Assembly (NCBI GenBank): GCA_025358295.1
Contig: JANYJY010000048.1
Span: 1 to 50,117, forward strand
Source: Gammaproteobacteria bacterium
Lineage (GTDB): Bacteria; Pseudomonadota; Gammaproteobacteria; Steroidobacterales; Steroidobacteraceae
Direction: 5' to 3'
DNA: 50,117 bases
Shown here: piece after piece, positions 2 through 35,074 of the stretch
How positions within the stretch are numbered: position 1 is the stretch's first letter
Layout of the letters: each line of letters starts with the position of its first letter
The notes under the pieces: model-generated
The model's database searches: none
Seen by the model: the letters and a program-made list of their open reading frames with translations, nothing else
Told to the model about the DNA's origin: nothing
Made by a program: the position numbers and the translations under genes

Positions 2-181
2 GGATTGGATCAAGACGATCAGGCGTGGGGCGAATATTTGTTCTTTCGAGATAATCCCAAGGGTCTGCATTTGGAGCGCTGGCGCCACCTGCAGGGCTGC
101 GGCCGTTGGTTCAATCTGCAGCGCAATACGGTCACCCATGAAATATTGTCCGTATACGCCATGACTGATTCGGTGCCATGA
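2..181 (+). CDS. soxD: Sarcosine oxidase delta subunit, C-terminal part (5' truncated by window edge)
   Basis: The first 180 bases are open in one frame and give about 59 residues ending in a TGA at 179-181. The residues include YLFFRDNPKG, ERWRHLQGCGRWFN and RNTVTHE, which match the conserved core of the small delta subunit of heterotetrameric sarcosine oxidase. In this family the subunit binds zinc through cysteines and helps assemble the alpha/beta/gamma/delta complex that demethylates sarcosine to glycine. The gene ends in an ATGA overlap with soxA, so translation is probably coupled. The N-terminus, and presumably soxB before it, lie outside the window. The usual soxB-D-A-G order supports the call. 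Confidence 0.9.
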   Translation, partial: GLDQDDQAWGEYLFFRDNPKGLHLERWRHLQGCGRWFNLQRNTVTHEILSVYAMTDSVP

Positions 182-3087
182 CGGCCTCACGACTACCGGC
201 GCCGGCAGGGCGGTGCATCGATCGATCGCGACCACTGTCCTTCGAATTCAACGGCCGGCGCCTGCCCGGCTTCCAGGGCGATACGCTGGCATCGGCGCTG
301 CTGGCGAACGGCGTGCAACTGGTCGGCCGCAGTTTCAAGTTGCATCGGCCGCGCGGTATTTTTTCCTGCGGCGTAGAAGAACCCAATGCGCTGGTCGACT
401 TGTGCGCCGATGGGGCGAGAACTCCCAATATGCGGGCGACTTTGGTGGAATTGGACGAGGGCTTGGTCGCCGAGAGCGTCAATTGCTGGCCGAGTCTGGC
501 CTTCGACCTGGGTGCCATTAACAACAAGTTGGGCGCGTTCCTGCCGTCCGGCTTCTATTACAAAACGTTCAAATGGCCCAATTGGCATCTTTATGAGCCA
601 TCGATTCGCCGCATGGCGGGATTGGGGAAAGTGCGTGTGCAACCCGATCCCGATCGTTATGAGGAGATCGCCGCCCAAACGGACGTGCTCGTCATCGGCG
701 GCGGCCTCGCTGGATTGAGCGCGGCGGTTGCCGCTGCGGAGGCGGGTGCGGATACCCTGCTGCTGACCGGCTCAGCCCTGTTGGGCGGTGCACTTGCGTG
801 GCGTGAGGACGCTCAGATCGCCGATCTCCTCGGCCGCGCCCGCAACTTGGGCGTGCGGCTGATGACCCGCACCATGGCCTTCGGAATCTACGATCACAAC
901 CTCGTATGCGCGCGCGAGTCCCTGCCGAGGGGCGAGGGTTTCCACAATCGCTGCGGTGTGCTGCGCGAGCGACTTTGGAAGATTCGCGCCCGGGCCGTCA
1001 TCGCGGCCGCCGGCGCCTTGGAACGTCCGATGATCTTCCCCAATAATGATCGCCCCGGCGTCATGTTGGCCGGTGCGGCCGACAAGTATGCCCATGCCTT
1101 CGGCGTCGGCTGCGGCCGGCGCGTGGTCATCGCCGCCAACAGCGATTCAGCCTATACAACCGCCAAATCCTTACTCGATGCCGGCGTGAAAGTGATTGCC
1201 GTGATCGATCGTCGGCCGCGCACGGATATGGCTGCCGATAAGGTGCCGGTGCGCATTTTTGCGGACTCCGGCATCGCCGAAGTGGGCGGCACGAAGGCGG
1301 TGCGCCACTGCACGGTCATTTCCACCGATTCGAATGCCGCGCGTCCGGAGCGGCTGGAGTGCGATTTGATTTTGAGTGCCGGCGGGCACGCCCCGACGGT
1401 GCATTTACATTCTCAGGCCGGCGGAAAATTGCGCTGGCTGGAAAACTCCGCCATGTTCGTTCCCGACGGTGCGGCGCCCGGCGTGTGGAGCGCCGGCGCA
1501 TGCGCGGGCATCTTTGGCCGCGATGCGTTGGTGAATCATGCGGCGGAACTCGGCGCCGCGCTCGCGCGTGGCGGAGCTGTGCCGGCGGCGCCTATGGGGG
1601 GCGGCGGCATATCCTTGGCGGCCACCCACATTCCTGGATTGACGGGCAAGCACTTCGTGGACCTGCAGAACGATGTGTCGATGAGCGACGTTGGACTGGC
1701 CGCGCAAGAGAACTACCGTTCTGTCGAACATTTGAAACGCTACACCACCACCGGCATGGGCACCGACCAGGGCAAGACCAGCAACGTCAATGCATTGGTA
1801 TTGATGGGAGAGTTCACCGGTCGCGAGCCCGTGGATGTGGGGACCACGAAGTTTCGTCCGCCGTTCGCGCCGGTGAGCCTCGGGTTGCTCGCGGGTCGAC
1901 GGGTGGGCGACCTGTATCGGCCGTTGAAACATCTGCCGGCACGGGCGTGGCACCAAGCACGCGGCGCGCTATTCGAGCAATTCGGCAATTGGGTTCGCCC
2001 TTCGGCTTATCCGCTGTCCGGCGAATCATTGGAGGACGCGGCGCGGCGCGAGGCGGGCGCGGTGCGCAGAAGCGTCGGGTTATTCGACGGGTCGCCGCTC
2101 GGCAAGCTCGAAATCTACGGACCGGACGCGGCTGCATTTCTCGATCTCATGTATGTGGGGACAATGTCCACTTTGAGCGTGGGTCAGGCCCGCTATGGAA
2201 TATTGCTCAATGAGAACGGCATTGTCGTCGACGACGGCATCGTCGCCTGTCTCGGGCCGCAACATTACTGGGTGAACACCACCAGCGCGGGTGTGGAGCG
2301 CACCACGGCTGCATTCGAGGAATGGCTGCAATGCGAATACACGCAGTTGCGCGTGCTGGTGACGCCGGTCACTTCGCGCTGGGGCAATGTCACCGTGGCG
2401 GGACCCCGCGCCTGGGATTGGCTCGCGGCCGTCGGCTTCGCGGCGCAACTCTCGCCGAGTTCGATGAAGCATATGACGCTGCGCGAATGTACTTTGGACG
2501 GTGTGCGCTTGCGCGTATTGAGGGCGAGCTTCAGCGGCGAGTTAGGATATGAGATCAATGTTCCGGCCAATCATGTCGAGGCCTTGCTGGAACGATTTTG
2601 GCATCATGCGGCGGATTTCGCGGCCGTGCCCTATGGAATCGAAGCGCTCGAGATCATGCGCACGGAAAAGGGCTTCATTCACATCGGCACCGACACCGAC
2701 GGCACGACTCTGCCGCAGGACATCGGTTTTGCCCGCGCCATTGAGCGCAAGGCCGCGAATTTTGTCGGCCGGCGTTCGCTGCTGCGCCACGCCGCGCGCG
2801 ATCCGAACCGGTTCCAATTGGTGGCGCTATCGCCCGTCGATCGTCGTACACGTCTGCCGGTCGGCGCGCAAATTGCGGCCGCCGCTCCGCCGGCGCAATC
2901 CGAGGGCTATGTGACCTCCAGTTATTGGAGTCCTGCACTGCAGATGCCGGTCGCGCTAGGACTGCTTGCGCGCGGCACTCAGAGGATGGGCGAACGCATC
3001 AAGGTTCATCATCTGGGGACCATGATCGAGGCCGAGGTGGTCAGGGCGCCGTTTGTTGACCCTGCCGGAGAGCGCCTGAATGGTTGA
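178..3087 (+). CDS. soxA: Sarcosine oxidase alpha subunit
   Basis: A 969-residue protein of the usual length for the alpha subunit of heterotetrameric sarcosine oxidase. In order it shows an N-terminal Fer2-like region (GDTLASALLANGV, about residues 38-50; RGIFSCGVEEPNA further on), a Rossmann dinucleotide-binding fold (VLVIGGGLAGLSAA, about residue 170), and a C-terminal GcvT-like folate-binding domain (about 590-960, with SFSGELGYEI). The enzyme oxidises sarcosine to glycine and passes the methyl carbon to tetrahydrofolate as 5,10-methylene-THF. The start is the ATG of an ATGA overlap with soxD, and the stop overlaps soxG by 8 bases. It is cytoplasmic. FolD, encoded at 4583-5473, would process the methylene-THF product. 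Confidence 0.95.
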   Translation: MTASRLPAPAGRCIDRSRPLSFEFNGRRLPGFQGDTLASALLANGVQLVGRSFKLHRPRGIFSCGVEEPNALVDLCADGARTPNMRATLVELDEGLVAESVNCWPSLAFDLGAINNKLGAFLPSGFYYKTFKWPNWHLYEPSIRRMAGLGKVRVQPDPDRYEEIAAQTDVLVIGGGLAGLSAAVAAAEAGADTLLLTGSALLGGALAWREDAQIADLLGRARNLGVRLMTRTMAFGIYDHNLVCARESLPRGEGFHNRCGVLRERLWKIRARAVIAAAGALERPMIFPNNDRPGVMLAGAADKYAHAFGVGCGRRVVIAANSDSAYTTAKSLLDAGVKVIAVIDRRPRTDMAADKVPVRIFADSGIAEVGGTKAVRHCTVISTDSNAARPERLECDLILSAGGHAPTVHLHSQAGGKLRWLENSAMFVPDGAAPGVWSAGACAGIFGRDALVNHAAELGAALARGGAVPAAPMGGGGISLAATHIPGLTGKHFVDLQNDVSMSDVGLAAQENYRSVEHLKRYTTTGMGTDQGKTSNVNALVLMGEFTGREPVDVGTTKFRPPFAPVSLGLLAGRRVGDLYRPLKHLPARAWHQARGALFEQFGNWVRPSAYPLSGESLEDAARREAGAVRRSVGLFDGSPLGKLEIYGPDAAAFLDLMYVGTMSTLSVGQARYGILLNENGIVVDDGIVACLGPQHYWVNTTSAGVERTTAAFEEWLQCEYTQLRVLVTPVTSRWGNVTVAGPRAWDWLAAVGFAAQLSPSSMKHMTLRECTLDGVRLRVLRASFSGELGYEINVPANHVEALLERFWHHAADFAAVPYGIEALEIMRTEKGFIHIGTDTDGTTLPQDIGFARAIERKAANFVGRRSLLRHAARDPNRFQLVALSPVDRRTRLPVGAQIAAAAPPAQSEGYVTSSYWSPALQMPVALGLLARGTQRMGERIKVHHLGTMIEAEVVRAPFVDPAGERLNG

Positions 3088-7748: not shown

Positions 7749-9278
7749 TTAAATTGGCGGGAATCTCGCCATCGCTTCCAGGTCGCCGAGATCCTGATCA
7801 TTGCGCACGTACAGGCGGCTCGCGTCGCGCAGGGGCTGGAAGTCCCAAGGCGTGTACTTGCCGGAGCGCAGGGCCGCGTAGACCAGATGGCGGCGCTGTT
7901 GGCTGGCAGTAACCGCCGCGTGCAGAGCACTGAGGTCCCAGCGCTGCGCCAGCTCGGCGCGAAAGTCTTGCACGAGCCTTGACTGCGCGGGCGAGCCCGC
8001 GAGATTGCGCAGTTCCTCCGGATCGTCGCGCAAGTCATAGAGTTGATCGGGATCCACCGGCGAATGCACGAATTTGTAACGGCCGCGCTTGATCATCACC
8101 AGGGGAGCGATCGCTCCCTCGGCCAGATATTCACCGAAGACTTCGTCCTTACCTGGGGCGCCGTTAAGCTGCGGCACCAGGCTCTGTCCGTCGAGAGGCG
8201 ATACGAAGTTTTGCGCCTTCGGGCCCGCGAGTTCGCAAAGCGTGGGCAGAATATCGACGAGCGAGGCGGATTCGGCCACACGCCGGGCCGCAAATCGTCC
8301 CGGTGCGTGTACGATCAGCGGGATGCGGCAGGCTGGCTCGAAGAAACTCATTTTGTACCAGAGGCCGCGCTCTCCCAGCATGTCGCCGTGATCGGCGAAT
8401 AACAACACGATGGTGTTCTCGGCCATGCCCGTATCGGCCAGCGCTTTGAGCAGCACGCCGACTTGATCGTCCACATAGGAAACCGCGCCATAGTAGGCAC
8501 GGCGCGCATTGCGCACCTGTGCCTCGTTCACCGGCAGCAGATCGAGTCCGCACACATGGCGCAAGCGGCGCGAGTGCGGATCAAGTTCCGCAGGGTCCAT
8601 GCGTACGCGCGGCATGTCGATGTCCGCGTGCGTGTACCGATCCCAGTAAGCTTGAGGAATGACATAGGGATCGTGGGGATGGGTCATGGAGGCGACCATG
8701 CAGAAGGGCCGCTTATCCTTGTCGCGCGCCATATCGAACAGTTCCTGCCGGGCGCTGAAGACGACGTCGTCGTCGAAGTCGATCTGATTGGTGCGCGTGC
8801 AGGGGCCCGCCTGGGTAACCGAGTCCATGGTGTGATACCAAGTCGGCCGATGCGAAAAGCGCGCCCAGTCGGGCGTCCAGCCGAAGTCGGCCGGATAGAT
8901 GTCGGTGGTCAAACGCTTCTCGAATCCGTGCAGCTGGTCCGCGCCGCAGAAATGCATTTTTCCGCTTAAGACCGTGCGGTATCCCGAGTGCCGTAGGTAA
9001 TGCGCAAAGGTCGGCACCTGCGAGGGAAATTCCGCCGCATTGTCGTATGCGCCTATGGCGGAGACTTGTCGTCCCGACAGCAGTGAAAAACGCGATGGTG
9101 CGCACAGCGGGCTGTTGCAGTAGAAGGAGTCGAACAGCACCCCGGCGCCGGCCAGGGCGTCGATGTGCGGCGTCTTCGCGACGGCGTTTCCGTACGCCGG
9201 AAGCGCGCGTGCGGTCAGCTGATCCGCCATCAAAATCAGGAAATTAGGACGGTCCGACAAGGTATTCTCCATTGCCAT
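7749..9278 (-). CDS. betC: Choline-sulfatase-like sulfatase
   Basis: A 509-residue type I sulfatase. LCAPSRFSLLSGRQ holds the CxPSR formylglycine motif, RPNFLILMADQL the N-terminal metal-binding Asp, and LLFADHGDMLGERGLWYK the second metal/His cluster. LSGKMHFCGADQLHGFEKRL and TDIYPADFGWTPDW match the choline-sulfatase subgroup, and the C-terminus (YTPWDFQPLRDASRLYVRN) matches its characteristic tail. It would hydrolyse choline-O-sulfate to choline and sulfate. No signal peptide is seen, so it is cytoplasmic, as BetC is. The start could be the ATG at 9278 or at 9272; neither has a strong ribosome-binding site. It reads toward the lipoprotein at 5676 and diverges from the toxin-antitoxin genes. 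A related organosulfate substrate is possible. Confidence 0.88.
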   Translation of the reverse strand: MAMENTLSDRPNFLILMADQLTARALPAYGNAVAKTPHIDALAGAGVLFDSFYCNSPLCAPSRFSLLSGRQVSAIGAYDNAAEFPSQVPTFAHYLRHSGYRTVLSGKMHFCGADQLHGFEKRLTTDIYPADFGWTPDWARFSHRPTWYHTMDSVTQAGPCTRTNQIDFDDDVVFSARQELFDMARDKDKRPFCMVASMTHPHDPYVIPQAYWDRYTHADIDMPRVRMDPAELDPHSRRLRHVCGLDLLPVNEAQVRNARRAYYGAVSYVDDQVGVLLKALADTGMAENTIVLLFADHGDMLGERGLWYKMSFFEPACRIPLIVHAPGRFAARRVAESASLVDILPTLCELAGPKAQNFVSPLDGQSLVPQLNGAPGKDEVFGEYLAEGAIAPLVMIKRGRYKFVHSPVDPDQLYDLRDDPEELRNLAGSPAQSRLVQDFRAELAQRWDLSALHAAVTASQQRRHLVYAALRSGKYTPWDFQPLRDASRLYVRNDQDLGDLEAMARFPPI

Positions 9279-9566: not shown

Positions 9567-9941
9567 GTGCGGGTTCTTTTAGACACACATTTGTTGCTAT
9601 GGGCGCTATCACAGCCGTCGAAACTTTCTCCGTCGGTGCGCAAAAAAATTGTCGCAGCGGAGGTTTTTGTGAGTGCCGCCTCAATTTGGGAAATCAGCAT
9701 CAAGTCTGCGATGGGGAAACTTACAGCAAATCCGGCTGAAGTTCTCGCGGCGATCGAACCCGCCGGCTTCAGCCTCCTGCCGATAACCGGCGAGCATGCG
9801 GCAAAGGTGGCTGAGCTTCCCTTGCTGCACCAGGACCCTTTCGATCGCATGCTGATTGCGCAGGCATTTGTGGAGCCGATGTTGCTGCTGACCAACGACG
9901 AAGTCTTGCGTGGCTATGGTTCATTTGTTGCGATGGGGTAG
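9567..9941 (+). CDS. PIN-domain toxin, VapC family
   Basis: A 124-residue PIN-domain ribonuclease. The acidic residues are visible: LLDTHLLLWAL (first Asp), SAASIWEISIK (Glu), HQDPFDRMLIAQA (Asp pair) and LLTNDEVL (last Asp). It starts at GTG 9567, two bases after the antitoxin stop, with a GAAGGG inside the antitoxin 3' end. VapC toxins cleave RNA, often tRNA or rRNA, and are inhibited by the paired antitoxin. The 3' end overlaps the convergent MHS transporter by 28 bases, and the codons look intact, so the toxin is probably functional. Confidence 0.93.
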   Translation: MRVLLDTHLLLWALSQPSKLSPSVRKKIVAAEVFVSAASIWEISIKSAMGKLTANPAEVLAAIEPAGFSLLPITGEHAAKVAELPLLHQDPFDRMLIAQAFVEPMLLLTNDEVLRGYGSFVAMG

Positions 9942-11233
9942 TCGCGAGTCGCCGCCATGCTCGCCGAGCGACTCCCCAAAAAGGGAATAGCCATCAACGC
10001 CACGCACGCTGCCATCATCACATACCAGGCAGGCGAATAGATCGAGCCGCCCGAGCGCTGCGTGAGCCAGGTCAGGATCATGGGTGCGAAGCCGCCGAAC
10101 AGCGTGAAGGCGCCGTTGTACACCAGCGAGGTTCCCGTCGAGCGCACGCTGGTCGGGAAGATCTCGGACAGGGCCGCGGGCGCGACGCCGACGAAGCTCG
10201 CCACCAACAGGCATACGATGCATTGCACGGTGATCAGGGTGGTCAGGCTCGGGTCGGCCTTCAGCCATATAAACAGCGGCAGCACCAGGACGAGCAGCAG
10301 TGCCGCACTCAGAAATAAACTCCTGCGCCTGCCGATCCGATCCGATAGCGAGCCGAACCAGACGCAGCCGATGACGAAGGGAATATTGCCGATGAGCGAC
10401 GCGCCGAAGGCTTGCTTGGCGCTGAAATTGAACGTGTCCGGACGTTGCACATACGTGGGCAGAAAGATCATCAACACATACACCGACACCGCCCACAGCA
10501 CGGCGACGCAAAAGCCGACGAATAAACTGCGCCCGTGTTCGCGGAAAATCTCCACCAAGGGCACCCTGCGATCCGCGTGCAGTTCGGCGCGCCTGGATGC
10601 CTCCGCCTGAAAGGCCTGGGTCTCATCCAGAGTGCGGCGCAAATACAATCCCACGGGGGCAATGAGCAATCCGAACAAGAAGGGGATCCGCCAGCCCCAG
10701 GATTGAATCTCTTGAGTGCTGAGCGAGGCGGTGACCGTGAATGCCGCTAGTGCGCCCAGGATGTTCGCCATGCCCATGCTGGCCTCGAGCCATGATGCGA
10801 CCCGGCCGCGCTGCGCCGGTTCGGCACTCTCGAGCAAATAGGCCGTCGCGCCGCCGACTTCGCCGCCCGCCGAAAATCCCTGCAGAACGCGCCCGAGCAA
10901 CAACAGAAGCGGCGCGCCGATTCCAATCGAGGCGTAAGTAGGGGACAAGGCGATGATGCCCGTGCCGGCGGCCATCAACAAGATGGTCAAAGTCAGTGCG
11001 GCTTTGCGCCCCGATCGATCGCCGAAGTTGCCGATCAGCACCGCGCCCAAGGGACGAACCACGAAACCCAAACCGAACACCAGAAAGGTCTTGAGCAGCC
11101 GCGTATTCGGATCGTCGCCGGGAAAGAAATTTCCCGCGATGTAGCCTGCAAACAAGGCGTACACCGTGAAGTCGTACCACTCGAGCATATTGCCGATCGA
11201 GGTCGCGACGATCGCGCGGGTCTTGCTGGGCAA
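9914..11233 (-). CDS. MFS transporter, metabolite:H+ symporter (MHS) family
   Basis: A 439-residue, 12-helix inner-membrane transporter. GNMLEWYDFTVYALFAGYIA and the loop GNFGDRSGRK are hallmarks of the MHS family (KgtP, ProP, ShiA and citrate carriers), as are LLGRVLQGFSAGGEVGGATAYL and WRIPFLFG. It would import a small organic acid, betaine-like or related compound with protons; the substrate is not readable. The start is TTG at 11233, 9 bases after the desaturase stop, so it is the last gene of the six-gene minus-strand run beginning at 19600. Its 3' end overlaps the VapC-type toxin gene tail-to-tail. Confidence 0.92.
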   Translation of the reverse strand: MPSKTRAIVATSIGNMLEWYDFTVYALFAGYIAGNFFPGDDPNTRLLKTFLVFGLGFVVRPLGAVLIGNFGDRSGRKAALTLTILLMAAGTGIIALSPTYASIGIGAPLLLLLGRVLQGFSAGGEVGGATAYLLESAEPAQRGRVASWLEASMGMANILGALAAFTVTASLSTQEIQSWGWRIPFLFGLLIAPVGLYLRRTLDETQAFQAEASRRAELHADRRVPLVEIFREHGRSLFVGFCVAVLWAVSVYVLMIFLPTYVQRPDTFNFSAKQAFGASLIGNIPFVIGCVWFGSLSDRIGRRRSLFLSAALLLVLVLPLFIWLKADPSLTTLITVQCIVCLLVASFVGVAPAALSEIFPTSVRSTGTSLVYNGAFTLFGGFAPMILTWLTQRSGGSIYSPAWYVMMAACVALMAIPFLGSRSASMAATRDYPIATNEP

Positions 11234-11242
11234 TTCGATGCT

Positions 11243-12145
11243 CTACAGGGTGGGGTGAACGGGACTGAATACGGGAGTCAGAAAGTATTGCCGGGCAAGC
11301 ACGGCATAGCCCGTGTACACAAACTCTCCATTACTCGCCAAAAGGCCCGCGCGATTCTCCCGATAGAAGCGCGGAATGTCGTACCAGGGCATCGCCGGTT
11401 TCAAATGATGCGCGACGTGCAGATTGTTATACAGATACAGCAATCCGAACAGCACATTGGATTCCACCGATGCGGTCCTTTGCTGCGAGTCCTCTGCGGC
11501 ACGATGCTCCGTGAAGGCCCGCAACAGTCCCAAGCTCAGGCCAGGATAGGCGACGAGCAGGCAGTACTGCCACCAAGGAAAGCCGCAGACGCCGGAGATG
11601 AACCAGAACAGAACGCCCACCGCAATCACATGCGCGGCCCAGTGCGGCAAGTGACTGAGGTCTCCCTGCCGCACGCGGTCGGTTTCCTTTTTGATGAGGC
11701 TCCACAGGCGCAGAGCCGGCCCGATGAGCAAGCGGCCGGCCATGGTCTGATTGAAACGCAGCACACCCCGCGTGACCGGTCCCATGCGCGCCCAATCTGC
11801 CTGGCGAACGTAGTAAGACTCGGTGTCGACCCCCGGCACGGTCAGATTGATGTCGCGATGATGGGTGGTATGGCTCTTGCGATACAACGGGTAGGGGAAC
11901 CAGAGCCCCAGCGGCGGAAACACGATGGCAAACCTCAGCCAGGCCGGCACGCCCCGAAAGGAATGGATGGCTTCGTGCTGCAGAGAAAAATGCCAGGCAA
12001 TCAAATACGCGCCCACCGGCAGGATGATCCACCAGGGCAGCAGCGCGTTGAACCACACCAATAAGAACCACGCGCCGTAGAGCGCCAAGGCCACCAACCA
12101 GGTGGGTCCGTCGATTCTATAAAAGGTCTGCTTTAGGCTGTGCAT
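11243..12145 (-). CDS. Membrane fatty-acid desaturase
   Basis: A 300-residue integral membrane di-iron desaturase. The three histidine clusters are present: QHEAIHS (about 56-62), SHTTHHRD (about 90-97) and NLHVAHHL (about 242-249). Hydrophobic segments flank them (ALALYGAWFLLVWF, IAVGVLFWFISGV). Proteins of this class introduce double bonds in, or hydroxylate, acyl chains or carotenoid-like lipids using O2. The spacing from the upstream PhnD-like gene (36 bases) and to the MHS gene (9 bases) places it within the operon. Substrate unknown; a lipid-like ligand of the operon is one possibility. Confidence 0.92.
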   Translation of the reverse strand: MHSLKQTFYRIDGPTWLVALALYGAWFLLVWFNALLPWWIILPVGAYLIAWHFSLQHEAIHSFRGVPAWLRFAIVFPPLGLWFPYPLYRKSHTTHHRDINLTVPGVDTESYYVRQADWARMGPVTRGVLRFNQTMAGRLLIGPALRLWSLIKKETDRVRQGDLSHLPHWAAHVIAVGVLFWFISGVCGFPWWQYCLLVAYPGLSLGLLRAFTEHRAAEDSQQRTASVESNVLFGLLYLYNNLHVAHHLKPAMPWYDIPRFYRENRAGLLASNGEFVYTGYAVLARQYFLTPVFSPVHPTL

Positions 12146-12181: not shown

Positions 12182-13021
12182 TCAATTCGCGAAGGAAGTC
12201 GACACGGCGGCAAAGGCCGGATGCAGGGTCTGCGCGAGGCGGTGTTGCGTCCAATAGCTGCTTGCCGCCGCGAAATTCAAGCGCAACGCATCATAGGAAT
12301 CAGGGTCGGGACGTACGAACCGCTCCAGCAGTAATCCCGACATGAGCGGCGCCACGGCGGGGATTTTATGGGCATCTAGGAAGGCCGCCTGCAAGGCATC
12401 GTACCCCGGCCGCGAGGCGACCAAGGGTGGAATGGGCGTGCGTGCGGTGCGCCCGATGATGCGCAGCTGGGACGTCAAATCCCAGCGATACTTATGCAAC
12501 AAGCAATAGGCATAGGAGTCGATGGGCGCCACGTCGGCGACGCCCTCGACGACGGCAGTCATCGCCCCCAGAGGCGTGACTTGCGGGGTGATGACCTCGC
12601 CATACAGGGGGAATTTCCCGGCTACCGACATGAGGTAGTACAGGGCCGCCAAACAGCCGGACTGAGAGTCCGGCACGGTCAGCGCGATTCTACCGCCGAA
12701 GGTATCCTCGATGATCTGATAGTGGCTGTCCTTGCGGACGACCATCTCGCTCCAATACTGGGGCAAGCTGCGAAATTCGGCGGGCGAGGGTACCGGTGCG
12801 GCAATGAGCTGCGGACGCGGCTTCGAACGCGAGAAAGGCAGGCCGCACATGAAGACGGCCGCCTTATCGTCGCGCAGCCATAAATCGTCGATCGGCGCAG
12901 GCTCTGTGTGTTCGAGCAGTTGGATGTCGAGACCGGCATGTTCGATCACTGCCGTCAGCAGGCGGCGCCACAGGCCGGCTGCTTCTGGGCTCACCGAATA
13001 CATGCGGGCGTTCGCGATCAT
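12182..13021 (-). CDS. PhnD-like solute-binding fold protein without a signal peptide
   Basis: A 279-residue protein resembling the PhnD/transferrin-like periplasmic binding fold: DDLWLRDDKAAVFMCGLPFSR, IALTVPDSQSGCLAALYYL, VVEGVADVAPIDSYAYCLL and TPIPPLVAS follow the order seen in phosphonate-binding proteins. Unlike those, it begins MIANARMYSVSPEA with no signal sequence, so it is probably cytoplasmic. No ABC permease or ATPase gene is nearby. Its ATG forms an ATGA overlap with the HAL-like gene stop, which suggests coupled translation and a linked function. It could be a ligand sensor or a small-molecule-binding partner. Function not known. Confidence 0.75.
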   Translation of the reverse strand: MIANARMYSVSPEAAGLWRRLLTAVIEHAGLDIQLLEHTEPAPIDDLWLRDDKAAVFMCGLPFSRSKPRPQLIAAPVPSPAEFRSLPQYWSEMVVRKDSHYQIIEDTFGGRIALTVPDSQSGCLAALYYLMSVAGKFPLYGEVITPQVTPLGAMTAVVEGVADVAPIDSYAYCLLHKYRWDLTSQLRIIGRTARTPIPPLVASRPGYDALQAAFLDAHKIPAVAPLMSGLLLERFVRPDPDSYDALRLNFAAASSYWTQHRLAQTLHPAFAAVSTSFAN

Positions 13022-14838
13022 GGGGCCATTGAGCGGCGCGGCGCCTCGTCCGGTTCCTGCGCATTGTGGCGATAGAAGCTCACCGCGGCATGGCCGTGGA
13101 TGAAGTCCGCCGCGATTTCATGAATGGGTTGAGTCGCCGATGCCGGCCCATTGCCATTGAATGGTAGCGTGGCGCGAAACGCGGTCCATACCGCCGTCGG
13201 CGCGGCGCCGAATTCGCGCGACGGCTTCTGCGCTTTGCGCAAGTCCAGCCAGTACGTTCCGGTCAGAAGATCTTCTGCCAATAATTCGATGGTGTTGTCG
13301 ACCACCGCTCGCGCCCGAGTAACCTTGAGCCGCGTCTGGGTCTGTAGGTCCTCTACATTTTGAATCAAGGCATTGCCCTCCGGCGGCACGGGGTTGATCA
13401 GTCCCTGTATTTCCTGCATCAATGCCGTCACATCGATTTCGCTGCCTTGAGTCAAGTGGAAGCGCCCCGGTTCTCCCGGAGATTCATCGGCTGCTGCGGT
13501 CACGGTGAAGAAGGGGTTGGTGAAGCGTATGACCCGCTGGGCCACGGCCGTATCGAGATTGGCGAGCGCGATGCTGAAGGCCTCGATCTCATTGGCCATG
13601 GGGTAGGGGTCCCAATTGGCATTCGAGAATATATATCCGTGTTGGCCATGATTGCGCGCGCTGCCCTTGACGTAGAACTGAGCCAGCTGCGGCGTGCTCA
13701 ATTCCCACGAGTCGCTTGGCGACGCGCCGACGCGCACGGCCGGATTGTGATCCGAGGAATTCATTTGAATCAAAACAACATCGCGCAATTGCGCCCACGC
13801 ATGCCACGCCGAGCCCTGACGAATCGAGGAGGCGCGCAGGCTTTCGGGATCTTGAATGATCCGCTTGTCGTCCAATTCGAACAGGTAGCTGCCCTTCAGC
13901 ATGTCGAGCACCCGCGCGGCATCCCAGTTCAGCCATTTGAAGGGCCGGTTGGCTTGGACGGGCTGCGACAGCGGCGAGACACTGCTGTTCATGCCGTTCA
14001 GATCGATGGCATAGATCAGGTCCGACCAGGAAAGCGCCTCGCGGGCGTCATGCAACAGCAGCGCTGCTTGGCCGGTTGCATAGGAATTGGTGCTCTCCAA
14101 TTCGCTATCGTCCGCTCCAAAGGGCGCTAGCGGCTCAAGTCCCGCCTGATGCAACGCCGCGGCAGCTGTCATGCGCACGCCGCGATAGTAGGCATTGCCG
14201 GCGCCCACCATGGTTGCGCCAACATTGGTGAAAGGTCCCAGATCGCCTTCGCCGACCGTGCCTCGTGATTGCACCACCGGGGTGATTCGATCGTTAAGCA
14301 AATCGAGCAGACGCTGAGTGAGCTGCGGGCTTGCCGCCTCGAAACTCATGGTGTTGGCACGCACCGCCAGCATGGCGCGGACGATTTCTTCTTCGCTGAC
14401 CTCGGGGCCAAGACCCGCGAGCGCACCGCGACGGAAGATCGCGAGCTGACGCTCTTCCAGGAGCTTTTTATTCGCGGGCGACAAGGGATCGCCGGTGAAG
14501 ATGAAACGCTCGCGTCCGGAGCCCGAACCGCGGTTGAACCAATACACGGAGACGCCTTCGGCAGCCGCTTCGAGCAGCAGCGCATGTGCGTCGGCGGAAC
14601 GTTGCCGCGCCTCATCGGTCAAGGCGACCTTGGCGCCATAGCGCGCCACCTGAACCACTTGATCGACGGTGAGATCGCGGCCGGTCAATACCACCGTCTG
14701 CTCCGCCATGCTCGGCACTATCGGGTGATATGTGACAGAGGCTCCGGCGAAGGAGTTCAGCGAGGTCAGCGACAGCGCCGCGGCGGCGCACAAACCGTGG
14801 ATCACGGTGGCTCTGGAAATCAATGCCATGACATTCAC
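13018..14838 (-). CDS. Exported HAL/PAL-like protein lacking the MIO cofactor triad
   Basis: A 606-residue member of the histidine/phenylalanine ammonia-lyase superfamily with a clear signal peptide (ALISRATVIHGLCAAAALSLTSLNSFAGA). The lyases make their MIO cofactor from Ala-Ser-Gly within GSVGASGDLAPL; here residues about 193-203 read GTVGEGDLGPF, one residue shorter and with no ASG. The segment equivalent to QDPYSLR reads QDPESLR (about 326-332), replacing the catalytic Tyr. The region matching YGINTGFG reads VYWFNRGSGSG (about 96-106). The fold is well kept (SSDHNPA, ARNHGQHGYI, KVTRARAVVD). It is probably not a classical ammonia-lyase; it may bind a ligand or carry out another reaction in the periplasm. 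It sits 38 bases after the sulfotransferase gene and is coupled to the PhnD-like gene. Confidence 0.85.
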   Translation of the reverse strand: MNVMALISRATVIHGLCAAAALSLTSLNSFAGASVTYHPIVPSMAEQTVVLTGRDLTVDQVVQVARYGAKVALTDEARQRSADAHALLLEAAAEGVSVYWFNRGSGSGRERFIFTGDPLSPANKKLLEERQLAIFRRGALAGLGPEVSEEEIVRAMLAVRANTMSFEAASPQLTQRLLDLLNDRITPVVQSRGTVGEGDLGPFTNVGATMVGAGNAYYRGVRMTAAAALHQAGLEPLAPFGADDSELESTNSYATGQAALLLHDAREALSWSDLIYAIDLNGMNSSVSPLSQPVQANRPFKWLNWDAARVLDMLKGSYLFELDDKRIIQDPESLRASSIRQGSAWHAWAQLRDVVLIQMNSSDHNPAVRVGASPSDSWELSTPQLAQFYVKGSARNHGQHGYIFSNANWDPYPMANEIEAFSIALANLDTAVAQRVIRFTNPFFTVTAAADESPGEPGRFHLTQGSEIDVTALMQEIQGLINPVPPEGNALIQNVEDLQTQTRLKVTRARAVVDNTIELLAEDLLTGTYWLDLRKAQKPSREFGAAPTAVWTAFRATLPFNGNGPASATQPIHEIAADFIHGHAAVSFYRHNAQEPDEAPRRSMAP

Positions 14839-14876: not shown

Positions 14877-16889
14877 TCAAGAATCCGCCAGTGGGCCCAG
14901 GACTTGCTTCAGCGGCCCAAGCCAGGGTTCGTAATTCCGCCATTGATCGATGCCTTCCTTGAAAATCGGCTGGCGAACCTGCTCGGAGCTCGCCGTTCTG
15001 ATGCTGCGTTCGGTCTTGTAGAACTCAACGCACTGCGTTTCGAACTCCAAGCCGCAGAACTCCAGGATCCTGCGCACATTGGCCTCAAGATTCTCGACCA
15101 CGGCTTCGTGCTCGACGCGCAGCGCCTTCCCCGGCAGCACCGAATCCCAGTGCGCCATCAGTTCCACGTAGGTCTTGTAGTACCGGCCGATGTCCTCGAG
15201 TCCGTAGGTGAACTCCTGGCCGAAGGCAAAGTATTGCTTGAAATTGCTGAAGCAGCAGGCCATGGCGTTGCGACGGGTGTCGATGATCTTGGCGTGCGGC
15301 AGAATGAGGTGAATCAGACCCACATGACGGAAATTATTCGGCATCTTGTCGATGAAAAAGGGCTTCCCGGTGCGGTAGATGCGTGTGTCCCTCAGGTATG
15401 TCTCGCCCAGGCGTCGAAAGTCTTCGTCGGTCATGTCCTGCAGCACGGCGGGGTACCGAGGGCTCATGCCGTCCTGCTCTCGTCCCTGCAAATCCAAGAC
15501 CAGGCGCGGTATATCCGCGAGTTCCATCGTGCCTTCGACACGCGAATGCGAGGCCAGGATCTGCTCGATGAGAGTGGAACCGGAGCGCGGCAATCCGACG
15601 ATGAAGATGGGAGCTGGGTCGGGCGAGCCTACTCCGGGGTGCGCGGCAAAGAACTCGCGGGTGCACACGGCCTTTTGTAGGCGGGTGTTGCGCTCGATGG
15701 GTTCGGGCCGGTAGCGGCTCTGGGATTTCTTGAGCGCATTGCCGCGTTCGTAATAGCGGAACGATTCTGCAAATTCGCCGCGATCTTCGAGCGCTTTGCC
15801 GAGAGCGAAGCACAGGTTGATGCGGTCTAGGGGATCGAGGGACGGGGCGGACTCTTCCGCGCGCATGCACGAAATCTCTGACTCCTCGAACCGATAAGTC
15901 TTGAGATTGGCGAGGCTCCAATAGGCGTCGCCGAAGCTCGGACGCACGGCTGCGGCATGGCGGTACGCCTCGATGGCCTCCTTCTGCCGGCCCATGGCTT
16001 TGAGGGAATGCGCGATCGATAAGTGTAGTTCGCTGACTTGCACTGTCTGCGCGGCGTCCACCAACAGCGCCCGGTAGAGCTCGAGTGCCTGTTCGTGATC
16101 GCCCATGCCCACCTTCGTGGTGGCGTAGGTCGTGCGGTAAGCCCGATTGTTAGGCTCGACGAGGAGCAACTTCTCGAGCTGCGCAATGGCCGCAAGATGC
16201 TTGTGACGCTTGAGCAGGGCGATGGCGTAATCGTAGCGCGCGGCATTGTAGTCCGGCGCGACGGCAAGGACCGCCTCCAGCAGCACCTCGGCGTCGTCCA
16301 GAACGTCACTCGCGAGACCGATGCGCGCCAGCAGGCGCATGCCTTCGACGTGATCGCCGTGCTTGAGCAAGAATGCGCGTACGATCGCTTCCGCCGCGGG
16401 GAGTTCGCCGTCGGAGAACAGCGCCGTGGCCGTGACTACGTCGGGTGGCAGTTTGGCGAGCGTCGCCACGTGCGCGCCCGCCATGGCGGCGTTTTCGATC
16501 TGCCCGCTCATCTGGTATAGATTCTGGAGCGTGCGCCAGCTGGCCGGCAGAGCTGTGTTGATATTCACCGCATGCAAGAACGCGTCGATGGCCCGCGGCG
16601 CGTCGCGCAAGGCGACGTAGCAATGACCGCGCTCCTGATACAGGCGGCTGAAATTCGGCTGCAGCTTCTGCAGCCGCTCCAGAGTGGCGAGGGCGTCGGG
16701 AATCCTATTCAGGTTCCGTTGGCTCACGGCCGTCATGTACAGGACATCGCGATTTTCCGGCACCTTCAGTGCGAGCGCTTCCGCCGCGGCAAGCGCAGCA
16801 TCGAACTGGTTGCGTTCCATCAGCGCGCGAATGCGCATCACTTCCGTTTCGACGGGTGACGCGGCGGGGGCTGTAACGGCTGATTGCAT
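14877..16889 (-). CDS. TPR-repeat sulfotransferase (module copy 1)
   Basis: A 670-residue protein. Residues about 20-350 are TPR-like helical repeats (for example AIDAFLHAVNINTALPASW, ALELYRALLV, AIEAYRHAAAVRPSFGDAYWSLANL), and about 425-650 form a PAPS-dependent sulfotransferase domain with the 5'-phosphosulfate loop FIVGLPRSGSTLIEQIL, then FIDKMPNNFRHV and RRNAMACCFSNFKQ. The frame is open to an ATG at 16913, but that ATG lies in a terminator hairpin. The ATG at 16889 (MQSAVTAP...) aligns with the start of the paralogue at 22290. It would transfer sulfate from PAPS to a protein, peptide or other acceptor; the acceptor is unknown. It lies between a TonB-dependent receptor and the HAL-like gene. 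Confidence 0.9.
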   Translation of the reverse strand: MQSAVTAPAASPVETEVMRIRALMERNQFDAALAAAEALALKVPENRDVLYMTAVSQRNLNRIPDALATLERLQKLQPNFSRLYQERGHCYVALRDAPRAIDAFLHAVNINTALPASWRTLQNLYQMSGQIENAAMAGAHVATLAKLPPDVVTATALFSDGELPAAEAIVRAFLLKHGDHVEGMRLLARIGLASDVLDDAEVLLEAVLAVAPDYNAARYDYAIALLKRHKHLAAIAQLEKLLLVEPNNRAYRTTYATTKVGMGDHEQALELYRALLVDAAQTVQVSELHLSIAHSLKAMGRQKEAIEAYRHAAAVRPSFGDAYWSLANLKTYRFEESEISCMRAEESAPSLDPLDRINLCFALGKALEDRGEFAESFRYYERGNALKKSQSRYRPEPIERNTRLQKAVCTREFFAAHPGVGSPDPAPIFIVGLPRSGSTLIEQILASHSRVEGTMELADIPRLVLDLQGREQDGMSPRYPAVLQDMTDEDFRRLGETYLRDTRIYRTGKPFFIDKMPNNFRHVGLIHLILPHAKIIDTRRNAMACCFSNFKQYFAFGQEFTYGLEDIGRYYKTYVELMAHWDSVLPGKALRVEHEAVVENLEANVRRILEFCGLEFETQCVEFYKTERSIRTASSEQVRQPIFKEGIDQWRNYEPWLGPLKQVLGPLADS

Positions 16890-16898
16890 TTTTCCCAA

Positions 16899-16925
16899 GA
16901 AAAAGGCGGGCATGTGCCCGCCTTT
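16899..16925 (-). terminator. Intrinsic terminator between receptor 1 and sulfotransferase 1
   Basis: In the minus-strand RNA, AAAGGCGGGCA pairs with TGCCCGCCTTT (plus positions 16902-16912 and 16915-16925; effectively a 9-bp stem with a 6-base loop), and five U residues follow. It begins 27 bases after the receptor stop and directly precedes the sulfotransferase start, so it should lower or gate transcription of the downstream genes. The same stem core occurs in module copy 2. Confidence 0.85.
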
Positions 16926-16951: not shown

Positions 16952-19600
16952 TTAGAACTTATACCCAAACTTCAACCCGATCACGCGCGGTCGAAGCGTA
17001 CTCTGCGCGACCACGAATTGAGCGGTATTCGTGAATAAGCTCGTTTCCTTATTGGTTAAATTCTGTGCGAACACATGAGCCGACCACGCGTCCTTGGCGA
17101 CCCCGAATGACGCATCGTATGTCGTATACGCCGGATTTTCGAAGCGCAGCAGCGTGGTGCTGATGCCGCCCGCGGAAATGGCCGGATCGTTGCCCGACTG
17201 CGTGTACGAATGGCCCGTATGCTGGCCGCCGAACTGCACGAAGGCGTTGTAGCTGTTGACCGTCCAATCGTAGCGGGCTCGCAGATTGAACTGGATGGGC
17301 GGTGAATTAGCGCTCGGCGCGCCGGGAGGCCCGAACAGGTTATTGATATTGTGGCAGGTAAACGGTTTTCCGCCGCAAGACTGAGTGATCGGCGTGCCGA
17401 CGCCCACGCTGTTCGGATTGGTATTCATCAGCGACGGCGAGTTGGTCTGCTCGCTGGAATTCCACGACGCAGCACCTTGCAGCGTCAACCCTGGCATGAC
17501 CACTGCTACGACGGACGTCTCCACTCCGCGGATACGGAAATTCTGCCCGTTGGTGCCGAAGGCCAGGTTGCCGGTCTCGCCCGGATCGAAGAAGCCGATC
17601 TGGACGTTGTCCCAGTTCTCCTGATACACCGCGCCATTCCACTGGAAGCGGTGATCGAACCACTCGGTCTTCCAGCCGACCTCCTTGTTGGTCAAGTCAT
17701 CCGAATGATATTCGCTCGGGATGGCGAACTGCGGTTTCCCGTCCGGTCCAGTAATGTATTTCGCTGGGCCGCCCTGGCGGTTGAAGCCGCCCGGTCTAAA
17801 TCCTTGCGAGTAGGTGGCGTACAGCATGATGTCCGGCGTGATATGCCAGGTGATGTTGCCGCGGCTTTTGGTGCCGGATTCCGAGAAGCTAAGGTTCTTG
17901 GCATTAAGGTTGGTCGAGCCCGTTACGCAGCCGCCAGCGGGGGCGCCCGCTTCGAAGCAGCTGAAGCTGCTGGTCACACTGCCCGTGAGAGCGTTCTCGA
18001 ACTTGTAATGACGTGTCCCTGCGGTGACGGTCAGGACTTTCGGAATGATGTCGAAGTCGACCGAGCCGAAGAACGCCGTTTGTTTGACCTCACGCTGAGT
18101 GTCTTCGAAGAAAGCCGTGTTGTCGCCGCGCACGCCGGGATTTTCGGTGGTGGTGCCGGGAGCGGTTCCGACGTTGGACATACAACCGGTGTTTCCGGGC
18201 GTACCCGGTGCGCCGTTGGCCGTACAGTTCGGAATGGACTTGTACAACCAGTCGGTCTGGTCGAACAGTTTGTTCTGTTCGTAGAACGCGCCGGCGATCC
18301 CCCGAATGCGCCAATCGTCCGGCGTGCTGACGCGAATTTCATTGCTGAGATGCTCATTGCGTTCGACCTCACGCCAGGTGGAACTCGGCGAGTAGCAGCG
18401 CGAGGTGAGACCCGGCGTCGGCGAGGGCAGATAGAACCCGGTTCCCGGGCCATAGCACTGGTAGTAATCGGCAAAGACGCCGCGCGCGTAGTTGGTGTAA
18501 TCGGCCACTTGGTCGACATGCCTCACCAAGTAGCCGCCGGTATAGACCGCCTTGAGCGGACCTAACTTGCCATTCAAGGTCCACGCCGTATTTTCAAATT
18601 TATCCTTGTCGTGGGCGTTATTGAACAGCGTCACTTCGAGCGGATTCAGTTTCTCGCCGTCGGAGCCATTGGGCATCTGATAGAACACGCCCTGCGAGTC
18701 CATGTTCTGATACGACTGGGAAAGCAAGACATTCCAGTCGTCATTGATCTGGTAGAGCAGTTCGGCGCGCATTCCGGTGTAGGTCACGGGATTGATGGCG
18801 CGGCCGGCGATGGCATCGTTATTGATGACAGGCGCGTTGACGGGCACGCCGCCGCCCGGGTTTCTCGCATAGCCAATGCCGAGGTCGGTGCTTTTGCGAG
18901 TAAAGTTGCCGGGCACGTTGTCGATGTAGCCACCGCGGCGATCGTTATAGATCACCGCACGCACGGCCAAATGGTCGGTAATCAGCGGCACGTTCAACAC
19001 CGCGTTCAAGTCGCTGTTCGGATCCCCGTGCGCGGTCACGCCGTAGCCGGCTTCGACGTTACCTTCGGTCACGTTGAGCTTGGGTTTGTTCGTGATATAG
19101 CGCACCACACCGGCCTGGGCGCCGGCGCCGAACAAAGTCCCCTGCGGACCTTCCAGCACCTCGATGCGCTCGAGATCGGCGGCATAGATGTCGAGGTTGC
19201 GGGCCGGCAGCTGGCCGGATTGATCATCCAGATAAATGGCGACATTCGGGAAGCCGCCGATGGTACCGCTCGATTGGCTGCCTGCGGCGCCGACGCTGAG
19301 GCCGCGCATGAAGATATTGCCCTGGCCCGGGCCGTTGGTCGCGACAGACACGTTCGGCAAGTAGCGCACGTAGTCGTCGAAGGTGCTGACGCTCAGTTGA
19401 TTCAGCGTTTCCGCCGTCAACGCTTGGATGGTGATGGGCACATTTTGAATGTTTTCCGTGCGGCGCTGCGCCGTCACAGTGATCTCTTGGATCGAATCCG
19501 ACGCTTCGGTGTCGGTGGCTGCTGCTGCGTGGGCGAAACTGGCGGCGGACCCGCTCAGGATGGCTGCTATGGCATAGGACAACTTCTGACTCGAGTTCAT
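16952..19600 (-). CDS. TonB-dependent outer-membrane receptor (module copy 1)
   Basis: An 882-residue receptor with a signal peptide (MNSSQKLSYAIAAIL...AHAAAA), a TonB-box-like EITVTAQRR (about 39-47), a plug domain (NVPITIQALTAETL, YLPNVSV, NIFMRGLSVG, LEGPQGTLFGAGAQAGVVRYIT) and a long beta-barrel ending GLKFGYKF with the terminal Phe. An AAGGGAT site precedes the ATG. The barrel has YATYSQGFRPGGFNRQGG, common in the oligotroph/sphingomonad type of receptor. It takes up a specific ligand across the outer membrane with TonB energy. The ligand is unknown; there is no adjacent iron-regulation gene. A close paralogue lies at 22355-24958. Confidence 0.95.
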   Translation of the reverse strand: MNSSQKLSYAIAAILSGSAASFAHAAAATDTEASDSIQEITVTAQRRTENIQNVPITIQALTAETLNQLSVSTFDDYVRYLPNVSVATNGPGQGNIFMRGLSVGAAGSQSSGTIGGFPNVAIYLDDQSGQLPARNLDIYAADLERIEVLEGPQGTLFGAGAQAGVVRYITNKPKLNVTEGNVEAGYGVTAHGDPNSDLNAVLNVPLITDHLAVRAVIYNDRRGGYIDNVPGNFTRKSTDLGIGYARNPGGGVPVNAPVINNDAIAGRAINPVTYTGMRAELLYQINDDWNVLLSQSYQNMDSQGVFYQMPNGSDGEKLNPLEVTLFNNAHDKDKFENTAWTLNGKLGPLKAVYTGGYLVRHVDQVADYTNYARGVFADYYQCYGPGTGFYLPSPTPGLTSRCYSPSSTWREVERNEHLSNEIRVSTPDDWRIRGIAGAFYEQNKLFDQTDWLYKSIPNCTANGAPGTPGNTGCMSNVGTAPGTTTENPGVRGDNTAFFEDTQREVKQTAFFGSVDFDIIPKVLTVTAGTRHYKFENALTGSVTSSFSCFEAGAPAGGCVTGSTNLNAKNLSFSESGTKSRGNITWHITPDIMLYATYSQGFRPGGFNRQGGPAKYITGPDGKPQFAIPSEYHSDDLTNKEVGWKTEWFDHRFQWNGAVYQENWDNVQIGFFDPGETGNLAFGTNGQNFRIRGVETSVVAVVMPGLTLQGAASWNSSEQTNSPSLMNTNPNSVGVGTPITQSCGGKPFTCHNINNLFGPPGAPSANSPPIQFNLRARYDWTVNSYNAFVQFGGQHTGHSYTQSGNDPAISAGGISTTLLRFENPAYTTYDASFGVAKDAWSAHVFAQNLTNKETSLFTNTAQFVVAQSTLRPRVIGLKFGYKF

Positions 19601-24958: not shown

Positions 24959-25179
24959 GCCCGCATCCCTTTCATTTATATTATGGATCAATTTTTTCGC
25001 AGGGCACGCTTCAGTGCGCCCAGCTTCCCCGTTACGCCTATTTGGTGTACGTCATCAACACATTGTCATCCCAAGATCTGCTTGTCGTTTGATCCCGAGC
25101 TTAGCCCATTGATATCCCACAACTAGGTTGTTATGCGAATTGCTGTTATCAAATTGCGACATCTTTTGCGCGCAGGGCG

Positions 25180-31348: not shown

Positions 31349-31416
31349 TCGCGATTGCGTGGCGCGCGGTGCGCCCGCGATCACCTTGTACTCAACACCA
31401 TGAATTTGGAGATGCT

Positions 31417-33904: not shown

Positions 33905-35074
33905 ATGCAGAGCACATCCGACATCGACAAGCTGGCCTATAACGGGCTGACCGAACACACGGAAGGTTTGCCGGCGGATGCGTATTACGATCCTCGTCAG
34001 TATGAGCGGGAAATGCAGCGCATCTGGTATCGCAACTGGATCTATGTTGGTCGCTCGAGCGACGTTAAGAGCGCTCGAGCGTTCCGTACGTTTGAACTCG
34101 GCGACCAGAAGATTCTCCTGGTGCGCGACGATCAGGGAATCTTGCAGGGCTTTCATAACACCTGCAGGCATCGCGGCGCGGCGCTGTGCCGTGAGTCGGA
34201 AGGGGTGCTGCGCACGGCAAGCATCATCTGCCCGTATCACGCATGGGTTTATAACTTACAGGGCGACCTGCTGCGAACTTCCTCCAAGGCGCACGCCAGC
34301 GGTTTCGACGTGGCGGACTTTCCGCTGTACAGAATCAGCGTCAAGGAATGGAGCGGTTTCATCTTCGTCGCGTTGACCGATGCGCCGCCGCCCTTCGAGA
34401 AGATTTTCGATCTGCCGTTAAACCGGCTCGCTGCCTGGCCGCTCGAGGAATTGGTGGTCGGGCATGTGCTGCTCAAGACGATCAACAGCAATTGGAAAAT
34501 ATTCTGGGAGAATTACAACGAGTGCCTGCACTGCCCGGGCGTGCACCCTCAGTTGTCGCGACTCGTGCCCATCTATGGACGTGGGCTGCTCGAGGAGCGC
34601 GACGATCCCCAGTGGAGCCTGCATGCCGATGATGCGCATCCGAAGTTCAAGGGCGGGCTGCGCAGAGGCGCCGCTACGTGGTCCTTGGACGGCAAGACCA
34701 CCGGAATCCCATTTCCCGGATTGTCCGACACCGATCGACAGGCAGGCCATATTTATATGACGAGCCTGCCTTCGGTGTTTTTGGTGGGGCATGTCGACTA
34801 TGTGCGTGTGGTGCGCCTCCTGCCGCTGGGTCCCGAGAAAACCGAACTACGCGTCGAATATCTTTTCTCTGCACAGACTTTGGCCGATCCGAGCTTCGAT
34901 ATGCGCAATGTGGTGGATTTCACCAATCTAGTCATGACCGAGGACGCGCAGGTGTGCGAACTCAATCAAATGGGCTTGCGGGCAGGACCTCATGTGCGCG
35001 GAGTGGTCATGCCGGAAGAGTACGTCGTACGTCAGTTTCATGAGTGGCTACACGCTGAGTTGGCGCGCGTATAG
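33905..35074 (+). CDS. Rieske non-heme iron oxygenase, alpha subunit (possible betaine/quaternary-amine demethylase)
   Basis: A 389-residue ring-hydroxylating-type oxygenase. The Rieske 2Fe-2S motif is C-x-H (CRHRG, about 87-91) and C-x2-H (CPYH, about 109-112); the mononuclear iron site is NYNECLHCPGVHP (about 203-215). Proteins with this layout include glycine-betaine and carnitine monooxygenases as well as aromatic dioxygenases; the neighbouring DMGDH-like and PotF-like genes favour an N-demethylase. No reductase component is encoded nearby. A GGGAGGG precedes ATG 33905. The PotF-like gene begins within its last 35 bases. Confidence 0.88.
   Translation: MQSTSDIDKLAYNGLTEHTEGLPADAYYDPRQYEREMQRIWYRNWIYVGRSSDVKSARAFRTFELGDQKILLVRDDQGILQGFHNTCRHRGAALCRESEGVLRTASIICPYHAWVYNLQGDLLRTSSKAHASGFDVADFPLYRISVKEWSGFIFVALTDAPPPFEKIFDLPLNRLAAWPLEELVVGHVLLKTINSNWKIFWENYNECLHCPGVHPQLSRLVPIYGRGLLEERDDPQWSLHADDAHPKFKGGLRRGAATWSLDGKTTGIPFPGLSDTDRQAGHIYMTSLPSVFLVGHVDYVRVVRLLPLGPEKTELRVEYLFSAQTLADPSFDMRNVVDFTNLVMTEDAQVCELNQMGLRAGPHVRGVVMPEEYVVRQFHEWLHAELARV

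Follow-up and report, generated by a model that had tools for sequence, protein, structure and literature searches.

A HAL-fold lyase gene with altered active-site motifs

A stretch of 50,117 nucleotides from a Gammaproteobacteria bacterium (contig JANYJY010000048.1 of assembly GCA_025358295.1), hereafter the window, was analyzed for a gene whose product, hereafter the window lyase, has the fold of histidine ammonia-lyase (HAL) and phenylalanine ammonia-lyase (PAL). An initial annotation, made from the sequence alone, had proposed that this protein keeps the HAL/PAL fold, is exported, and lacks the Ala-Ser-Gly (ASG) triad from which such lyases form their 4-methylideneimidazole-5-one (MIO) cofactor. 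The open reading frame (ORF) was confirmed; it is on the minus strand, which the annotation had left unstated (Table 1). Conservation of the fold was confirmed by a match to Pfam profile PF00221 over residues 56–555 (324.5 bits, cut-off 27.3) and by an AlphaFold2 model (pLDDT 85.5, pTM 0.88) and its Foldseek match. The cut-offs of the matching NCBIfam models for ammonia-lyases and aminomutases (hutH, PAL, tyrosine ammonia-lyase (TAL) and mutases) were all far above the score of the window lyase, which was at best 161.8 bits against 539 for TIGR01225; this score and the missing ASG rule out an ordinary HAL.

Alignment to the HAL of the same genome bore out the altered motifs. The window lyase reads YWFNRGSG for YGINTGFG, QDPESLR for QDPYSFR, and GTVGE-GDLGP for GSVGASGDLAP. 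With a loop shortened by one residue and devoid of Ala-Ser-Gly, the protein cannot, on sequence grounds, form MIO. The N-terminus, read by eye, combines an Arg, a hydrophobic segment and an AGA site, resembling the signal peptide that had been proposed, and the lyase is probably exported from the cytoplasm.

To place the motif among relatives, a protein search independent of it was run on 60 genomes including that of the window, yielding 20 loci. The 18 close ones (L008–L025, L008 being the window copy) carried GEGDL (13), GEGDR (3), GEDDR (1) or GEADL (1), and none had an Ala-, Thr- or Cys-Ser-Gly; the other two, L026 and L027, were weak matches (29–30%) of the HAL kind, L027 with ASG and L026 reading GSVGYLTHMAH. 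A sequencing error that had removed ASG, which the initial annotation had named as a refuting case, is ruled out, as the 17 close relatives are equally ASG-less, and no homologue sharing the motif turned out to be an MIO enzyme. Pairwise ratios of nonsynonymous to synonymous substitution (dN/dS) between the window lyase and four relatives were 0.080, 0.109, 0.133 and 0.120, which are rough figures given dS values of 1.3–2.0, near saturation. These ratios rule out a dead gene and indicate purifying selection on a gene whose role is retained, as had been supposed.

A larger set of 68 lyase loci was collected partly by the GEGD pattern and is not independent evidence for that motif. An alignment of 44 rows was built from 43 of its 73 lyase ORFs plus the window copy, so that the conservation of GE[GA]D in it is partly by construction. 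Residues Y99, R103, E197, D199, Q329, R335 and H364 are invariant in these rows, and E332, W409 and E496 nearly so.

Kinship with ergothionase

Among solved proteins, phmmer placed Treponema denticola ergothionase (6s7j) first, at 1e-42 against 1e-21 for the runner-up. Foldseek likewise placed three 6s7j chains on top for the predicted structure (E 6e-29 and 24% identity, with TM scores of 0.89 when normalized by the length of the target and 0.73 by that of the query). Ergothionase is referred to as acting without MIO in PMC13405746, which there cites Maurer et al. 2019. The two proteins (6s7j and 6s7q for ergothionase) share the HAL fold, the MIO-less state, a GEGD loop of the same length (SSIGEGDI in 6s7j), the NRG segment (NRGVGW) and the conserved Tyr, Gln, Arg and Glu-Asp. 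Tyr53 and Glu411 of 6s7j, to which we attribute catalytic roles, align with Tyr99 and Glu496 of the window lyase. The proteins differ at Lys383 of 6s7j (printed numbering) and at the Leu of its QDPLSFR motif, where the window lyase has Ile and Glu; further marks of the window lyase are W100, W409 and an insertion near residues 370–400. Residue 332 is thus Glu in the window lyase and nearly all its close relatives, Tyr in HAL, and Leu in the aligned ergothionase-type sequences. Lys383, which we take to be catalytic in ergothionase, is kept in loci L116, L117, L118, L161 and L162.

Lys-bearing ergothionase-like lyases of Burkholderia arboris, Paraburkholderia PGU19, Paracoccus saliphilus, P. denitrificans and Polaromonas JS666 are MIO-less as well, and a related transporter of the major facilitator superfamily (MFS; B. 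arboris) or PhnD-like partner (Polaromonas) is shared with the window. Unlike the window lyase they have a GEAD or GAAD loop, YGLTVGVG or YGLNRGVG, and the Lys. HutH (L001 of the same genome; 1b8f of P. putida) has the fold, Tyr, Gln, Arg and Glu in common with the window lyase and differs from it in carrying ASG.

A quick 60-row tree with SH-aLRT support placed the window lyase in a clade of 47 rows (support 100; hereafter the window clade). Four rows of the HAL kind, three with ASG and one (L002) without, stood together on one side of a single branch (support 100), and the ergothionase-type sequences, the Lys-bearing lyases included, lay between these and the window clade on long branches, that of 6s7j being long enough to leave its placement unsure. 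Hosts of the window clade comprise Steroidobacteraceae-like metagenome-assembled genomes, Mesorhizobium, Labrys, Sphingomonadales, Acetobacteraceae and Pseudonocardia, and the clade has many paralogues.

Export had been put forward as a trait distinguishing the window lyase from HAL and PAL. Its signal-like start stands, but such starts also occur in ergothionase-like proteins of Sinorhizobium and in those of B. arboris, Paraburkholderia PGU19 and Paracoccus saliphilus, the latter being three of the four Lys-bearing proteobacterial lyases whose start was seen; the Lys-bearing Polaromonas lyase and, within the window clade, that of R. ruizarguesonis start without one. Among the matches listed in a literature search on lyase export, ergothionase was unmentioned.

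Ergothioneine-type gene clusters with HAL-fold lyases

A member of the window clade was found in an ergothioneine gene set. In Sphingomonas formosensis (L105), a Lys-less clade lyase is immediately followed by thiohydantoin desulfurase (NF058529, 596 bits, cut-off 440), thiourocanate hydratase (NF058530, 990 bits, cut-off 930) and an MFS gene; an in-frame GTG of the desulfurase and the lyase stop share a 4-bp overlap, and ErtD (763 bits, cut-off 600) and ErtE (581, cut-off 520) lie nearby on the opposite strand. The clade lyase occupies the ergothionase slot of this set. The genome encodes four PF00221 proteins, namely one HAL and three nearest to the window lyase (47–58%), none of the four being nearest to the Lys-bearing reference sequences; in one paralogue, L184, the register of the Lys column could not be read. 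At L091, two tandem clade lyases accompany desulfurase, thiourocanate hydratase, MFS and TonB-receptor-like genes. Desulfurase and hydratase genes stand with a Lys-bearing lyase in B. arboris (L118) and P. denitrificans (L162). In a gammaproteobacterial metagenome-assembled genome (L165, the genome of L061), ErtD and desulfurase occur with a hydratase gene that is broken and with a Lys-bearing lyase whose start is signal-like; the cluster also has an MFS gene 52% identical to that of the window and part of a TonB receptor, which shares 66% identity with its window counterpart over 240 amino acids.

All ten desulfurase/hydratase stretches examined contained a HAL-fold lyase, L091, L105, L118 and L162 having been reached through a lyase. 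In the six chosen by hydratase or desulfurase alone (L165, L166, L203–L206), a lyase lay within ~6 kb every time and was MIO-less in five. Co-occurrence was too thin to test, as a desulfurase was found in five and a clade lyase in two of 289 evenly drawn Alphaproteobacteria, S. formosensis being in both counts (E 1e-60); the case therefore rests on gene position.

Two side observations concern such clusters. The alphaproteobacterial loci L204, L205 and L206 hold a further MIO-less type (GSIGCAD or GSIGCGD) that keeps the Lys and lies within a few kb of desulfurase and thiourocanate hydratase. In Paracoccus seriniphilus (L164; 1149–2801 and 7992–9095), an S-methyl thiourocanate hydratase (NF058531, 946 bits, cut-off 880) is found ~5 kb from a short lyase ORF without its N-terminal part.

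Gene neighbourhood of the window lyase

Table 1. Features of the window and of the lyase gene (window positions).
Feature	Positions	Strand	Basis and remarks
Lyase gene, MIO-free HAL-fold, ergothionase-type, probably exported	13018..14838	-	606 aa, GTG start; ORF and translation
Probable signal peptide, residues 1-33	14740..14838	-	Cleavage site after AGA, as read by eye
YWFNRGSG, residues 99-106, catalytic-Tyr loop	14521..14544	-	Alignment
GTVGEGD, residues 193-199, site of GSxGASGD in MIO lyases	14242..14262	-	Alignment; ASG-less
QDPESLR, residues 329-335	13834..13854	-	Alignment
VED, residues 495-497, acidic pair common to HAL and ergothionase	13348..13356	-	Alignment
PhnD/AioX-like substrate-binding-fold protein, no evident signal peptide	12182..13021	-	PF12974; model and Foldseek
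FA_desaturase-family membrane protein	11243..12145	-	PF00487; near lyase in 13 of 68 loci
MFS metabolite:H+ symporter	9914..11233	-	48-53% identity to MFS of ergothioneine-type clusters L091, L105, L165, L166
TPR-sulfotransferase (Sulfotransfer_3)	14877..16913	-	Pfam
TonB-dependent receptor	16952..19600	-	Pfam
Choline-sulfatase, betaine context	7749..9278	-	TIGR03417, 810 bits, cut-off 433
Dimethylglycine/sarcosine-dehydrogenase-like, DAO and GCV_T domains, betaine context	31369..33828	+	Below NCBIfam cut-off
Rieske oxygenase	33905..35074	+	Nearest NCBIfam model GbcA (glycine betaine monooxygenase), 188 bits, below cut-off 670
Sarcosine oxidase alpha-like	178..3087	+	TIGR01372, 1127 bits, below cut-off 1164

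Downstream of the lyase gene come the PhnD-like, desaturase-family and MFS genes. The PhnD-like gene overlaps the lyase gene by 4 bp, and the model of its product shows a binding fold of the AioX/ArrX/PhnD type. The same spacing of −4 bp was observed in L048, L049, L050, L052 and L083, and one of +3 in L057; the two genes are non-adjacent in L065, L081 and L098, and an overlong ORF start obscures the spacing in L053. A PhnD-like homologue (33%, 2e-39) is the third gene after the Polaromonas ergothionase-like lyase. The PhnD-like copy in L081 overlaps an MTTB gene.

Neighbouring genes were counted around the 68 lyase loci and in 40 control stretches, the latter being shorter (587,258 versus 1,195,078 bases) and drawn from the genus and family of the window only, whereas the 68 loci span classes: PhnD-like genes were found 12 versus 0 times, desaturase 13 versus 0, MFS 10 versus 0, TonB receptor 18 versus 3, TPR-sulfotransferase 15 versus 1, MTTB 5 versus 0, Rieske 2 versus 0 and aldehyde dehydrogenase 7 versus 3. 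The genes counted are greedy ORF picks, some with the wrong strand or overlong starts. A query with the Polaromonas OCD matched none of the 68 loci. Besides the betaine-related genes of Table 1, the window contains a choline-dehydrogenase-like gene below the NCBIfam cut-off. Demethylation genes were considered as proof of the substrate and dropped, the same comparison giving 10 versus 1 for DMGDH-like and 11 versus 1 for SoxA-like genes. Two pairs of TonB receptor and TPR-sulfotransferase follow each other in the window (receptors at 16952–19600 and 22355–24991, sulfotransferases at 14877–16913 and 20296–22290).

A putative periplasmic trimethylamine lyase

The window lyase is probably a periplasmic, MIO-free trimethylamine lyase of the ergothionase type, with ergothioneine or a similar histidine betaine as its predicted substrate. 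Ergothioneine itself is a serious candidate that we stop short of preferring outright, with hercynine or some other histidine betaine taking the rest of that likelihood. A betaine similar to ergothioneine would cross the outer membrane, perhaps through the TonB receptor encoded nearby, and the exported lyase would remove trimethylamine by 1,2-elimination, with Tyr99, Glu496 and Arg335 acting, as their conservation suggests, in the manner of ergothionase. No MIO electrophile would be required, since N(CH3)3 by itself leaves readily. Thiourocanate, or whichever urocanate-like acid is formed, would then enter the cytoplasm, possibly through the MFS transporter encoded downstream. The "different role" of the initial annotation would hold in that a role is retained, but the GEGD loop has a known MIO-less precedent in ergothionase and the protein is most likely still a C–N lyase.

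The MIO-less state itself is already known from ergothionase, and the window clade is, by its sequences, separate from it and well supported. More tentatively, this clade may form a large, paralogue-rich group of periplasmic MIO-free enzymes in which the ergothionase Lys was replaced and the pocket rebuilt for a range of N-trimethyl amino acids; the route of the window lineage would then consist of a cytosolic binding-fold partner, a desaturase-family enzyme and an MFS transporter, instead of thiourocanate hydratase and desulfurase. A literature search found nothing pointing to the window clade among titles and the beginnings of abstracts; full texts were mostly outside its reach, so that absence from print is not established.

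Several observations weigh against this reading of the window lyase. Its Ile at the Lys383 column is part of a wider replacement, the 44 clade rows having Y (25), F (6), K (4), I (3), L (3), R (2) and G (1) there, and it differs further by W100, E332, W409 and the absence of a His at the column of HAL His83. The window genome, 97.5% complete, yielded no S-Me-THD protein (desulfurase), and its only urocanase is that of the hut pathway; thiourocanate hydratase is absent as well. A cluster of these two genes was found with clade members in L105 and L091 and neither with the window copy nor elsewhere in its genome. Of the 68 loci, 49 led to 48 genomes that carry a clade lyase. A desulfurase match was found in six of these genomes (four near 70% identity, the others at 44% and 37%); in G073, which is among the four, a Lys-bearing lyase of its own adjoins the desulfurase. 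Urocanase was matched in 43 of the 48 and in five not at all at E 1e-30; matches near 70% identity to thiourocanate hydratase were found in four, one of these genes being broken. Most clade members are thus outside the known thiourocanate route, and either thiourocanate would be handled otherwise, or the substrate would be another betaine, for example hercynine, yielding urocanate for the Hut pathway. As to the clusters, the L105 and window lyases belong to different subclades, one of the tandem L091 lyases bears the Lys, so that this cluster is no witness for the Lys-less type, and in L203 (7096–8613) an ASG-bearing, MIO-type lyase directly adjoins desulfurase and thiourocanate hydratase. Finally, paralogues number two in the window genome and three or four in each of four others, which suggests more than one substrate. 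Because the Lys is missing, we regard the window lyase as a protein that probably works like ergothionase and do not class it as one.

These observations bear differently on the alternatives. The same MIO-free elimination could act on a non-imidazole quaternary amino acid (hypaphorine, or tyrosine or phenylalanine betaine), the resulting acid being imported by the MFS transporter or activated to a CoA ester. This would accommodate the replaced Lys and altered pocket, the lack of near-70% hydratase or desulfurase in 44 of the 48 genomes and of a urocanase match in five, and the R. ruizarguesonis copy, which lies next to ABC transporter genes and a gene of the acetate--CoA ligase family; several clade hosts are presumably plant-associated. 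We nonetheless regard it as rather unlikely, since the S. formosensis gene set is one for ergothioneine degradation and the window MFS is related to those of ergothioneine clusters; that a literature search on hypaphorine gave nothing is a weak point against it.

A degenerate HAL/PAL homologue kept as a non-catalytic binding or structural protein of the periplasm would agree with the absent MIO, the active-site changes and the signal-like N-terminus. It is improbable in view of the invariance of Tyr99, Gln329 and Arg335 and near invariance of Glu496, the low dN/dS and the enzyme slot taken in the L105 cluster. An ordinary ammonia-lyase whose cofactor triad is unusual would fit the membership of PF00221 and the label of aromatic amino acid ammonia-lyase that relatives bear in public records, yet the loop is one residue short, with E-G-D where A-S-G-D is required, the 18 close loci found independently of the motif hold no alternative triad, and the nearest solved relative is MIO-less, making this explanation highly improbable.

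If trimethylamine elimination from a histidine betaine is indeed the function, the periplasm of many Proteobacteria that live in soil or with plants would be a further site of trimethylamine-lyase chemistry, GE[GA]D, QDPE and NSSDHNP would serve as a sequence signature of the clade, and ergothioneine or related betaines would be tied to trimethylamine release in soil. The clade offers a natural test of the replacement of both MIO and the ergothionase Lys within one fold.

Other MIO-less lyases

Another MIO-less, HAL-like type is represented in the window genome by L002 (contig 51, 68319–69683), which has GSVGYLSHMAH, similar to the GSVGYLTHMAH of L026, in place of the GSVGASGDLAPLAH of HAL. 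The long branch of L002 falls with the HALs in the quick tree, and ASG may therefore have been lost more than once.

Public records label proteins of these kinds as aromatic amino acid or histidine ammonia-lyases, and MIO-free lyases may thus be misread as evidence of histidine degradation. A protein encoded on a plasmid of S. meliloti RCAM1750 (L007, 9944–11584) is annotated as histidine ammonia-lyase, yet it is MIO-less (GSVGQADM), with a signal-like N-terminus and, like S. sojae L163, an Ala at the Lys383 column. Its relatives are found in 26 Sinorhizobium plasmid records.

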